Source: Flavobacterium microcysteis
Lineage (GTDB): Bacteria; Bacteroidota; Bacteroidia; Flavobacteriales; Flavobacteriaceae
Assembly (NCBI RefSeq): GCF_006385255.1
Contig: NZ_VFJE01000056.1
Coordinates: forward strand, 682,001-746,000
DNA length: 64,000 nt
Direction of reading: 5' to 3'
The notes under the pieces are model-generated. The model was not told the DNA's origin and searched no databases. It saw only the letters and a program-made list of their open reading frames with translations. The translations under genes were made by a program, and so were the position numbers. The first letter of the stretch is position 1. The number at the start of each line of letters is the position of its first letter. This document shows positions 3,446 to 51,793 of the stretch, one piece after another.

Positions 3446-4813
3446 ATGGCCAAACCGGGAATTCCAAAAGGGACCAGAGATTTTTCACCAATCGAGGTTT
3501 CGAAGCGACAGTATATCATCCAGATTATAAAAACCAATTTTGAACGATATGGCTATCAGCCTATCGAGACGCCATCTTTTGAAAATTCCGAAACCCTTAT
3601 GGGGAAATACGGAGAAGAAGGCGACCGTTTGATTTTTAAGATTTTGAATTCTGGCGATAAAGTAAAAAAAGCAGATATGGCAGCTTTAGAGGCAAACAAT
3701 CTTGCTAAATTTTCCAATTCATTATCAGAAAAAGCATTGCGTTACGATTTGACCGTACCATTTGCGAGATATGTTGTGCAGCATCAGGCAGAAATTGAAT
3801 TTCCATTCAAAAGATATCAGATTCAGCCTGTTTGGAGAGCTGATAATCCACAAAAAGGGCGTTTCAGAGAATTTTACCAATGCGATGCCGATGTTGTAGG
3901 TTCCACCTCTTTGTGGCAGGAAGTAGAATTGGTGCAGTTGTATGATGCCGTTTTTACCGAATTAGGATTGGAAGGTGTCACCATAAAAATCAATAACAGA
4001 AAAATATTATCCGGTATTGCAGAAGTTATTGGTGCAAGCGATAAGCTTATCGATTTTACCGTGGCTTTGGACAAGTTGGATAAGATTGGCGAAGATGGTG
4101 TAAAAAAAGAAATGCTTGGAAAAGGGATTTCACCGGAAGCAATAGAAAAAGTACAGCCTTTGTTTCAGTTTACCGGAAGCATTTCTGAAAAAATAAGTAA
4201 GCTTTCAGAACTTTTGCAATCATCAGAAGAAGGAACAAAAGGAGTAGAGGAGTTGCAATTTATTTGTGATACTGTTGCTAAGTTAGGCTTGAAAAAATCA
4301 AACTTAGATTTAGATGTGACATTAGCTCGTGGACTGAATTATTATACCGGAGCTATTTTTGAAGTAGCTGCACCAAAAACGGTAGCCATGGGTTCTATTG
4401 GCGGTGGCGGTAGGTATGATGACCTGACAGGAATTTTCGGATTGAAAAATGTGAGTGGCGTCGGAATTTCTTTTGGACTTGACAGAATTTATCTGGTTTT
4501 GGAAGAATTGGGACTTTTCCCGCAAACGGTTACCGCTACTTCCAAAGCTATCTTTTTTAATTATGGAGAAGCCGAAGCTTTTTATGCGATGCAGGCCATT
4601 GCAAAATTAAGAGATGCAGGAATAAAAGTAGAGATGTATCCTGACAAGGCAAAACTAGATAAGCAATTCAAGTATGCCGAAAAGCGTCAGATTACTTATG
4701 CTATCATGGCAGGCTCTAATGAAATAGCAACAGGAAGCTATAGCGTAAAAGATCTGGTGACAGGCGAGAAGCACACTGTAGATTTCGAAGGTTTGAAAAA
4801 AATGTTACAATAA
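3446..4813 (+). CDS. hisS: Histidyl-tRNA synthetase
   Basis: 455-residue class II aminoacyl-tRNA synthetase charging tRNA-His. Motif 2 is visible as [19 protein letters not shown], and the HisRS-specific segment as [24 protein letters not shown] and [11 protein letters not shown] (motif 3) complete the catalytic core, and an anticodon-binding domain follows (about 365-455). ATG 3446 follows an A-rich leader. A strong terminator follows at 4834-4864. Confidence 0.97.
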
Positions 4814-21806: not shown

Positions 21807-21997
21807 GTTAAGCTACTATAAATTTAAGAGTGGATCTCAAAATATATAAATTGTGGTTTCTATGGGGTAAAAATAATGAATTCAGCCTTTGGTAAGGAGG
21901 AATAATTTAACTTTTCTATATAATAGGGTTTATTGCCGCAATACTAATCTTACCTTATCTTTGTTCGATAATTCTGAAGATATTTATTTTCAAATAG

Positions 21998-22160
21998 TAT
22001 TGGTTTTTGGCGAAAGCTGAAATTAAAAGGGAATCGTGTGTGAATCACGAGCTGTCGCGCAACTGTAAATGATGCAAAGTTTTTACCCTTAATGTCCACT
22101 GTCTGCCCTCGCAGATGGGAAGGGCGGTAAAAATATCATAAGTCAGGAGACCTGCCTTCA
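21998..22160 (+). promoter_or_regulatory. Cobalamin (adenosylcobalamin) riboswitch
   Basis: The conserved B12 box AGTCAGGAGACCTGCC is complete at 22141-22156. Upstream are the other hallmark segments: AAAAGGGAATC, GTGTGTGAATCAC, GAGCTGTCGCGCAACTGTA (22051 on), then CCACTGTCTGCCC and GATGGGAAGGGCGG (about 22096-22128). Order and spacing fit the class. It is on the plus strand, about 260 nt before the thioesterase gene, with a 25-codon ORF between. In Bacteroidota such elements normally repress B12 uptake or synthesis genes when cobalamin is present; there is no uptake gene here. Confidence 0.93.
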
Positions 22161-22206
22161 CTGTATTGACAAAGCTTTCGCGATTGAAGCTATTGGTTTG
22201 ATTTGC

Positions 22207-22284
22207 ATGGGATCATTACATCCTGGCGTATTTCTCTTTTCAATCACATTGCTGTCTCTAGGGATTATTCTGTATTCTTTTTAG
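22207..22284 (+). CDS. Possible small hydrophobic leader peptide (25 residues)
   Basis: Short ORF between the riboswitch and the thioesterase gene, reading MGSLHPGVFLFSITLLSLGI followed by ILYSF. It would form one membrane helix. No clear ribosome-binding site. It could be a real small protein, a translated leader that couples the switch to downstream genes, or chance. Confidence 0.25.
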   Translation: MGSLHPGVFLFSITLLSLGIILYSF

Positions 22285-22420
22285 GATATGGAGTGTATTA
22301 TTCATTGGCAATGACAAAACATCAACCGAGCTAAACCAATATTTGCCTGTAGTTTACTGCGCCTTTGTTTTATAATACAAAAAACAATTATTCACTTTAA
22401 GCATTGAACAAGTAAGTATT

Positions 22421-22810
22421 ATGACATTAGATGAAAAAATCAAGCAATCGGAAACGCACATTTTTAAGGCTGTATTTCCTAATACGACAAACCATTATGA
22501 CACGCTGTTTGGAGGAACTGCGATGCAGCTTATGGATGAGGTCGCATTTATCACAGCTACCCGATTTAGCAGGCAGCGTGTTGTGACCGTTAGCAGTGAT
22601 CGTATTGACTTCAAAAGGCCAATACCTGCGGGAACTATTGCCGAACTGATTGGTAAGGTAAAATATATCGGAAAGACAAGTCTTCAGGTTCATGTTGAGA
22701 TTTTCGTAGAGGATATGTATTCTGAAAACCGTGAAAAGGCAATCAGTGGTAACTTTACGTTTGTTGCTATTGATGAAAATAAGATGCCTACATCAATAAA
22801 TAAGGATTAG
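22421..22810 (+). CDS. Acyl-CoA thioesterase, hotdog fold
   Basis: 129 residues forming one hotdog domain of the YciA/BFIT type, which hydrolyses acyl-CoA to fatty acid and CoA. Diagnostic segments are TNHYDTLFGGTAMQLMDEVA (substrate-channel helix with the catalytic Asp region), ATRFSRQRVVTVSSDRIDFKRPI and TSLQVHVEIFVEDM. It starts 4 bp ahead of a KASIII gene on the same strand, so they are translationally close. Both lie downstream of the cobalamin riboswitch. Acyl-chain preference cannot be read from sequence. Confidence 0.92.
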   Translation: MTLDEKIKQSETHIFKAVFPNTTNHYDTLFGGTAMQLMDEVAFITATRFSRQRVVTVSSDRIDFKRPIPAGTIAELIGKVKYIGKTSLQVHVEIFVEDMYSENREKAISGNFTFVAIDENKMPTSINKD

Positions 22811-22814
22811 TTAT

Positions 22815-23804
22815 ATGAGCCAAGAAATTAAAGCGGCCATTACGGCTGTGGGTGGCTATGTTCCCGATACCATATTGGACAATTTCCAACTTGAAAAATT
22901 GGTAGATACTTCAGATGAATGGATTGTTGCCCGAACAGGAATCAAAGAACGAAGAATTCTTGCAGACAAGCAGAAAGCAACATCAGATATGGCTGCCGCT
23001 GCAATAACAGAATTGCTTGCAGAATATTCCGTAAAGGCTGAAGAAATAGATTGCGTTCTTCTGGCAACTTCAACACCAGATAAACTTCTGGCGCCAACAG
23101 CACCCATAGTATGCACAAAAGCAGGACTGCGGAATGCATGGGGATTGGATATTAATGCTGCCTGTAGCGGTTTCCTGTATGCACTATCTGTTGGAGCTGC
23201 GTTTATAGAATCAAGAAGATTTAAAAAAGTTCTTGTTGTTGGAGCCGATACCATGAGCAGGATTGTTGATTATACTGACCGGAATACGTGTATTCTTTTT
23301 GGAGATGGGGCAGGAGCCGTTTTATTAGAACCATCATCAAATTACGGCCTGCATGATTTTATTTTTAAGACAGATGGAACTGGAAATGATTTTTTATCAA
23401 TTCCCGCAGGAGGATCTTTACAGCCGGTAGGAGATATATCGCTACATGAAAACTTGCATTATGTGAAGCAAGACGGTCGTACCGTTTTTAAAAATGCGAT
23501 TTCGGGTATGACAAGCAGTTGTGATGAGCTATTGATGAAAAATGGTTTTGATGCGGATGCTATTGACTGGATAATACCGCATCAGGCAAACCTGCGAATT
23601 ATTAATGCCGTTGCAGACAATTTGAAAGTACCCATGTCTAAAGTAAAAGTGAACATACAGCGATATGGCAATACAACCGCTGCAACTATACCGCTTTGTC
23701 TTTGGGATTTCAAAAATGATTTCAAACAAGGCGACAGGATTTTTCTAACCGCTTTTGGAGCCGGTTTTACTTATGGAAGCAGTTATCTTACATGGGGAAA
23801 TTAA
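22815..23804 (+). CDS. 3-oxoacyl-ACP synthase III (KASIII), riboswitch-linked copy
   Basis: 329 residues with the complete KASIII triad: Cys117 (NAACSGF), His256 (IPHQAN) and Asn286 (YGNTTAA). The enzyme condenses an acyl-CoA primer with malonyl-ACP to start fatty-acid synthesis. It begins 4 bp after the thioesterase stop, so the two form one unit behind the cobalamin riboswitch. A second KASIII-like gene lies at 50783, so this is probably not the only family member in the genome. Primer choice (acetyl, propionyl or branched) is unknown. Confidence 0.93.
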   Translation: MSQEIKAAITAVGGYVPDTILDNFQLEKLVDTSDEWIVARTGIKERRILADKQKATSDMAAAAITELLAEYSVKAEEIDCVLLATSTPDKLLAPTAPIVCTKAGLRNAWGLDINAACSGFLYALSVGAAFIESRRFKKVLVVGADTMSRIVDYTDRNTCILFGDGAGAVLLEPSSNYGLHDFIFKTDGTGNDFLSIPAGGSLQPVGDISLHENLHYVKQDGRTVFKNAISGMTSSCDELLMKNGFDADAIDWIIPHQANLRIINAVADNLKVPMSKVKVNIQRYGNTTAATIPLCLWDFKNDFKQGDRIFLTAFGAGFTYGSSYLTWGN

Positions 23805-23861: not shown

Positions 23862-25043
<1,182 letters not shown>

Positions 25044-50782: not shown

Positions 50783-51793
50783 ATGTATCATTCGAAAATT
50801 GCAGGTTTAGGATATTATGTTCCTGAAAATATTGTTACTAATGATGATTTGTCTAAAAAAATAGACACTAATGATGAGTGGATCCAGGAACGTACAGGAA
50901 TTCAGGAAAGACGCCATATAGTAAAAGGCGACGGGAATACTACTACGTCTATGGGTGTAAAAGCAGCAAAAATTGCAATAGAGCGTTCCGGAGTAGCAAA
51001 AGAAGATATTGATTTTATCGTTTTTGCTACGTTGAGCCCTGATTACTATTTTCCAGGTCCTGGAGTTTTGGTTCAAAGAGATTTAGGATTAAATACGGTT
51101 GGTGCTTTGGATATTCGAAACCAATGTTCAGGTTTTGTATATGCCTTGTCAATTGCAGACCAGTATATCAAGACTGGCATGTATAAAAATATCTTGATTA
51201 TTGGTTCTGAAGTGCATTCGACAGGATTAGATATGACAACACGTGGACGTGGTGTTTCGGTAATTTTTGGTGATGGGGCAGGAGCGGCAATAATTTCAAG
51301 AGAAGAAGATTCAAACAAAGGAATTTTGTCGACACACCTGCATTCTGAAGGGCAATATGCGGAAGAACTTATCGTAAAAGCTCCCGGAATGGGCGGACGT
51401 TGGGTAACCGATATTATTGCAGATAATGATCCGAATGATGAAAGCTATTTCCCATACATGAATGGGCAATTTGTATTTAAAAATGCAGTGGTTCGTTTTA
51501 GTGAAGTGATTATGGAAGGCTTAAAAGCCAGCAATCTGGATGTTTCTGATATCAATATGCTGATTCCACATCAGGCGAATTTGAGAATTTCTCAATTTAT
51601 CCAGCAAAAATTTAAGTTGACAGACGACCAGGTTTATAATAATATCCAGAAATACGGAAATACTACCGCAGCTTCCATTCCAATTGCTTTGACAGAAGCA
51701 TGGGAGCAAGGAAAAATAAAATCTGGCGACCTTGTGGTGTTGGCTGCTTTTGGAAGTGGCTTCACCTGGGGGAGTGTAGTTATTCGTTGGTAA
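50783..51793 (+). CDS. 3-oxoacyl-ACP synthase III family protein, second copy
   Basis: 336 residues with the KASIII triad: Cys115 (RNQCSGF), His263 (IPHQAN) and Asn293 (YGNTTAA). Compared with the copy at 22815 it has a longer insertion after residue 195 (KAPGMGGRWVTDIIADNDPND), typical of a separate KASIII branch. Primer substrate unknown. Single gene; the housekeeping fabH may be elsewhere. Confidence 0.9.
   Translation: MYHSKIAGLGYYVPENIVTNDDLSKKIDTNDEWIQERTGIQERRHIVKGDGNTTTSMGVKAAKIAIERSGVAKEDIDFIVFATLSPDYYFPGPGVLVQRDLGLNTVGALDIRNQCSGFVYALSIADQYIKTGMYKNILIIGSEVHSTGLDMTTRGRGVSVIFGDGAGAAIISREEDSNKGILSTHLHSEGQYAEELIVKAPGMGGRWVTDIIADNDPNDESYFPYMNGQFVFKNAVVRFSEVIMEGLKASNLDVSDINMLIPHQANLRISQFIQQKFKLTDDQVYNNIQKYGNTTAASIPIALTEAWEQGKIKSGDLVVLAAFGSGFTWGSVVIRW

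Follow-up and report, generated by a model that had tools for sequence, protein, structure and literature searches.

Cobalamin riboswitches of the RF00174 class, whose Rfam clan also includes RF01482 (AdoCbl) and RF01689 (AdoCbl-II), possess an L5-L13 kissing loop as the expected regulatory element. Through riboswitches of this class, B12-independent isozymes are derepressed when B12 is low. A survey of RNA regulons in 255 genomes recognizes four categories of cobalamin-riboswitch targets: biosynthesis, B12 transport, cobalt transport and isozymes; its Bacteroidetes group consists of Bacteroidaceae, and the accessible sections of the paper contain no thioesterase category (PMC3766115). For Flavobacterium psychrophilum, the accessible part of one report places a cobalamin riboswitch ahead of a TonB-dependent transporter (PMC9723704). 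The accessible text of a study on twelve isolates, all from other bacteria, states that the conserved B12 enzymes are matched by counterparts working without B12, methylmalonyl-CoA mutase excepted; MetE, NrdAB and QueH cover three of the four widely conserved B12 enzymes, the mutase being the fourth (PMC10378866). Among the open-access papers listed for the subject, none was found to describe a cobalamin or B12 riboswitch upstream of an acyl-CoA thioesterase; the accessible text of one Chlorobium paper contains both terms, riboswitch and thioesterase, in unrelated passages.

The locus described here lies in a 64,000-nucleotide stretch of the Flavobacterium microcysteis genome, referred to below as the window, and shares with the RF00174 class the full aptamer, the B12 box and the L5-L13 kissing loop. 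The original prediction was of a well-formed aptamer in the right orientation, with its B12 box at 22141-22156, and a covariance-model search with the Rfam cobalamin family was proposed. This search confirmed it, returning RF00174 at 21984-22173 (+ strand) with 102.9 bits and E 1.2e-24, far above the 31.5 bits of the gathering threshold and along the whole model (positions 1-189 of 189), and the B12 box, AGTCAGGAGACCTGCC on the + strand, is identified at the predicted positions by sequence reading and by the Rfam alignment. The L5 loop TCGCG (22055-22059, +) forms five pairs with the complementary loop CGCGA (22179-22183) of the P13 hairpin AGCTTTCGCGATTGAAGCT (22173-22191, +), in agreement with the kissing interaction of RF00174. 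The hairpin is strongly conserved among six aligned loci; the minimum-energy fold does not pick it out (z -0.33). A terminator or shared attenuator was sought between P13 and TE, with nothing on the + strand, and a short second hairpin, spotted by eye in the KASIII subclade, gained no further support. Genome-wide search revealed two riboswitches, the copy in the window and one on contig 31, next to which a gene for a periplasmic binding protein (PF01497) is encoded in the opposite direction. The element in the window is very probably a cobalamin riboswitch with the thioesterase described below as its predicted target.

Two genes follow on the same strand, 4 nt apart, as had been read from the sequence originally. 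The proximal one, beginning 247 nt after the aptamer end, encodes a hotdog acyl-CoA thioesterase of 129 residues (TE; 22421-22810, +). The enzyme is a member of the 4HBT superfamily (PF03061, 63.4 bits, gathering score 20.6), and its match to the YciA equivalog NF007970 (56.4 bits, curated cut-off 162) places it in the same superfamily but outside YciA itself. It shares fold family and sequence with the YciA/hotdog thioesterases (4HBT; PDB 2gvh, 2eis, 1yli), the nearest solved chains being 2gvh and 2eis. YciA-type thioesterases have a broad substrate range, so the substrate of TE is not readable from its sequence; the accessible parts of the papers found describe no B12 control of YciA-type enzymes. 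The distal gene (22815-23804, +) encodes a beta-ketoacyl-ACP synthase III of FabH type with 329 residues (KASIII), matching PF08545/PF08541 and belonging to the FabH/KASIII family by its TIGR00747 score (349.7 bits, cut-off 292.1). Its best solved chain is 2ebd, and the aligned segments ACSGF, PHQAN and YGNT, which hold the Cys, His and Asn that are presumably catalytic, are conserved. A second FabH, 54% identical, is encoded elsewhere in the genome, and together with the conserved segments this makes the KASIII of the window look like an extra copy. A further KASIII homologue, 37% identical, is located at about 50795-51790 (+). TE and KASIII fall in none of the four target categories in the accessible sections of the 255-genome survey (PMC3766115), which distinguishes the locus from the targets described there. 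On the other strand, 23862-24980 (-) encodes an FAD monooxygenase near the Tet(X) family, a sub-threshold relative with 626 bits against the NF033111 cut-off of 750.

A search for the thioesterase in 299 genus genomes gave 113 matches above 120 bits besides that of the window, and all 113 regions were scanned; this number excludes G122, where the match is partial, with 58 residues and 95 bits. A riboswitch on the same strand, within about 3.3 kb upstream of TE, is present in 38 of the 113 loci. The profile scan of the TE loci gave no significant riboswitch match on the opposite strand, and one chance motif, in L158, was excluded from the riboswitch list. A riboswitch is present in 0 of 60 loci where TE adjoins RibBA and in 38 of 53 elsewhere. 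The RibBA group was assembled from seven loci of the sequence-cluster table (L195-L201) and 53 of a later scan (L286-L338), one RibBA protein having been checked with Pfam; the gene order in L197 is LolA-LptF/G-RibBA-TE. The remaining 15 switch-free loci include L152, scored as lacking a switch, whose contig breaks off about 650 nt before the TE gene. Rfam was also empty of riboswitches in 12 of the switch-free loci.

With a profile built from 29 Rfam-matched riboswitches, 17 of the 38 riboswitches score 83-110 bits, and the other 21 match in the core only, with 16-37 bits and without exception on the strand of TE. Eleven exceed the Rfam threshold, and in all seven sub-threshold loci that were re-tested the cobalamin clan was matched (E 4e-6 to 5e-4) with the expected position and strand. 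Among the 17 strong profile calls, thirteen are without an Rfam match of their own among those listed. Seven weak calls (L164, L167, L170, L173, L174, L183 and L188) were made by the profile and the L5, B12-box and P13 motifs alone. Five genomes (G020, G169, G204, G343 and G252) carry two riboswitch-TE loci each, and two switch-free loci, L179 and L180, belong to genomes with a full mutase match and a second TE that carries the switch (L191, L190). In a TE tree of 62 rows, which takes in neither the last 53 genus loci nor the 38 from other genera, the window is placed inside a well-supported group of seven, six of them with a switch. The switch label requires eight changes on this tree, of which at least five are imposed by branches with good support; after shuffling the number is 18.

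The L5 loops of the 38 riboswitches are of four types, TCGCG (24 loci), TTGCG (8), TCGTG (5) and TAGCG (1), and a homologous P13 hairpin was found in all 38 and in the window (39 rows). Among the 24 TCGCG loci, 22 have CGCGA or CGCGG as their L13 loop; it is CACGA in the five TCGTG loci, and CGCAC or CGCAT in the eight TTGCG loci. L5 and L13 vary jointly from locus to locus. Counting Watson-Crick pairs only, the locus's own L5 fits best in each of the three types that comprise several rows, with 4.44 pairs of 5 against at most 3.48 for the L5 of other types, 5.0 against 4.0, and 4.0 against 3.12. When G-U pairs are allowed, the TCGCG type is not discriminated (4.92 for its own L5, 4.92-4.96 for others), and in the single TAGCG locus, L175, the L5 of another type fits better. 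An earlier L5/L13 swap with a permissive hairpin search did not discriminate and was replaced by this comparison of homologous hairpins. In three loci of other genera L5 is ACGCG, and its counterpart, read by eye, is CGCGT for L225 and L235 and CGCGA for L226.

The switch is followed directly by TE as the first gene in 20 genus loci out of the 38 and also in L223 of another genus, where QueH comes next (PF02677, 215 bits); the aptamer core and the P13 hairpin are present in these first-gene loci. In other loci further genes accompany TE under the switch. NrdB and NrdA are inserted between switch and TE in nine genus loci, and L242, from another genus, has the order NrdB-TE-NrdA. Among these, L166 and L242 were scanned with NCBIfam, where Nrd alpha scores above the cut-offs (NF006577, TIGR02510) and beta below, and the other eight were assigned by sequence cluster. 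MetE lies between switch and TE in L150 of the genus and in L235 of another, and G252 carries both a MetE-TE and an NrdBA-TE locus. DUF71 precedes TE in L148 and L151, and KASIII is located between switch and TE in L143, L144, L146 and L147. A PAS partner occurs under the switch in L155 of the genus, in L225 and L226 of other genera and in L005 of Gelidibacter. Altogether seven kinds of partner have been identified (MetE, NrdBA, QueH, DUF71, PAS, BtuB-like and KASIII), five of which serve B12 uptake or salvage or encode isozymes that do without B12. In L154 a decayed MetE start lies between riboswitch and TE (4433-4657, oriented), which shows how TE could come to be the first gene of the operon. 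The PAS partner is a small protein encoded just 5' of TE (L155 4492-4974 and L225 4508-5005, oriented; L226 4499-4996; L005 4913-5479); that of L226 comes closest to the models of LOV blue-light receptors without reaching their cut-offs, and in L169 a related gene flanks TE on the opposite side and is oriented towards it.

The family search covered 199 genomes, each at least 95% complete, and gave 38 TE-subfamily loci from other genera (rows above 130 bits). A riboswitch was identified in five of them, spanning four genera, and 33 are without a switch; L227 was scanned with 3.7 kb upstream instead of 5. In addition, Gelidibacter gilvus (L005) shows the order riboswitch-BtuB-like-DUF5074-PAS-TE-KASIII, the BtuB-like protein scoring below the B12-receptor cut-off. 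A widespread TE paralogue, about 38% identical, has a riboswitch in 0 of 20 regions, by Rfam or by profile. The thioesterase is predicted to belong, as a recurring target, to the B12-riboswitch regulon of the Flavobacteriaceae. Control of TE by the riboswitch is not universal, because the RibBA-linked group contains none.

The original prediction as a whole is sustained in part. Its central idea, that the riboswitch controls the thioesterase, has more in its favour than the sequence alone could reveal: recurrence with changing partners, the B12-related company of five partner kinds and the switch-free paralogue speak for it. Orthologous loci lacking the riboswitch, named beforehand as counter-evidence, make up the large RibBA-linked group. 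Among the loci examined for KASIII, which include the first 60 genus regions and not the last 53, a switch common to KASIII and TE is confined to the window, Gelidibacter and four related loci. In L145, KASIII and TE stand together with no riboswitch. Of the 11 related KASIII loci, nine are free of riboswitches; of the other two, L005 has one upstream on the same strand and L006 a divergent one. KASIII was rejected as the primary target, with a same-strand riboswitch in L005 only of these 11 and with TE mostly under the switch without KASIII. The KASIII part of the predicted target is in this way weaker than the TE part, and its putative function as a propionyl-CoA sink is doubtful.

The company of TE points to the enzymes that depend on B12. 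TE shares riboswitches with MetE, NrdBA and QueH, the replacements of MetH, NrdJ and QueG, and it stands in the same operon as these riboswitch-controlled isozymes in L150, L235, L166, L242 and L223. Since the mutase alone has no replacement and TE belongs to the same regulon, TE plausibly relieves the block of the mutase at low B12. B12-independent isozymes replace an enzyme; TE, in contrast, does not catalyse the mutase reaction and would relieve its block. Like TE, the DUF71-B12 subgroup is tied to B12 metabolism by context alone, and unlike TE it is a predicted salvage enzyme, as described in the accessible part of the source (PMC3541065).

The mutase family PF01642 is matched in all 299 genus genomes, so the presence of the enzyme does not discriminate the loci with a switch, and the RibBA-linked group has no switch despite full-strength mutase matches (E 1e-232 or lower). 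Four genomes, G058, G123, G305 and G314, are the only ones on the TE list with a weak mutase match. Their MutB of 480-547 residues ends where the B12-binding domain would start, and PF02310 is missing in all four, while it is present in MutB of G169 and of the window's own genome. The TE loci of these genomes (L184-L187) have no switch, whereas the near relatives L177, L181-L183 and L188 carry it. Sixteen other genomes have a best mutase E above 1e-200; none is in the list of TE matches above 120 bits, and the majority of them are fragmentary or not complete. MetH, too, is missing from the four genomes, each of which retains one cobalamin riboswitch elsewhere. The loss of the MutB domain and of the TE riboswitch is one event in one clade. 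As a single event in a clade also lacking MetH, the co-loss points to B12-dependent metabolism in general. In L211-L214 of the same genomes, MutB without the B12-binding domain lies beside a MutA of about 455 residues; this is a diverged mutase pair, predicted to be unable to bind cobalamin in the usual way.

The stalling of the mutase at low B12, offered originally as the reason for the control, accordingly gains circumstantial backing from the MetE, NrdBA and QueH company and from the co-loss, and is set back by the latter being a single event with MetH gone too. A role of TE at low B12 is likely; that this role consists in relief of the mutase block is a fair reading, with about even chances. 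According to the proposed mechanism, the aptamer and the L5-L13 kissing hairpin would repress the TE-KASIII operon when B12 is plentiful and release it when B12 is scarce, the direction of control being taken from the riboswitch class. TE would then hydrolyse acyl-CoAs (propionyl-CoA, methylmalonyl-CoA or both) that accumulate and trap CoA when the mutase is without its cofactor, and would be the mutase's counterpart to the turning on of MetE, NrdAB or QueH. In the subclade of the window, KASIII may draw acyl-CoA into fatty acids.

Three other accounts of the arrangement have been considered. TE might be transcribed from its own promoter downstream of the riboswitch, B12 being irrelevant to TE here, as the interval of 247 nt and the -7 boxes with three of four letters found after the aptamer in some relatives by consensus scan would allow. 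Such a promoter was also the objection foreseen in the original prediction, and none was found. By the consensus of Bacteroidetes-type promoters, a full match, the putative promoter TTG-N20-TATCTTTG (21933-21963, +), precedes the aptamer by 20 nt, whereas the interval between aptamer and TE contains no site with at least three of the four scored -7 letters and no sigma-70-type site on the + strand. A -7 box with four of four letters lies upstream of the aptamer in 11 of 12 other scanned loci, with TTG at 15-23 nt in only two of these. The conservation of the P13 hairpin in relatives also argues against a separate promoter, which is highly improbable. The riboswitch could instead be a remnant whose classic target (MetE, NrdBA or BtuB) was deleted, leaving TE as a passive downstream neighbour; the frequent distal position of TE behind MetE or NrdBA and the MetE fragment of L154 are in line with this. 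Against it stand the first-gene loci that retain aptamer core and P13, the seven partner kinds, the five genomes with paired riboswitch-TE loci, and a persistence across so many lineages that is unexpected of a decaying element. As a general explanation it was rejected, because loci with TE as the first gene recur and have retained the switch, and we regard it as improbable.

B12 may also control TE for another purpose, such as adjustment of acyl-CoA or membrane lipids or a response to light or stress through PAS, possibly with KASIII setting the fatty-acid chain type. The PAS genes adjoining TE under the switch, the KASIII partners of one clade and the position of TE behind RibBA in the switch-free group fit this account, but PAS is found in only four loci and five of the seven partner kinds belong to B12 uptake, salvage or isozyme replacement, so it is rather unlikely. 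The preferred reading is a B12-repressed TE-KASIII operon in which TE relieves the mutase block. Taken as a whole this reading is somewhat probable, its substrate, its physiological role and the role of KASIII being deduced from gene content and context. A more extensive version is conceivable and a little less than evenly placed: the dedicated, riboswitch-controlled TE would be the Flavobacteriaceae bypass of a stalled mutase through CoA release, completing the set of MetE, NrdAB and QueH, and in one subclade a second FabH would make odd-chain fatty acids from surplus propionyl-CoA.

The targets of cobalamin riboswitches help to map B12-dependent enzymes, and a thioesterase recurring among them would represent a new class of target, the relief of a blocked pathway as opposed to the replacement of an enzyme. 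The analysis provides a regulatory context for a poorly defined thioesterase subfamily of the Flavobacteriaceae and suggests that the pairing of riboswitch and TE is a so far unrecognised way to cope with B12 shortage. If true, it would give a testable answer to the question of how B12-scavenging bacteria survive failure of the mutase, a bacterial parallel of methylmalonic acidaemia.
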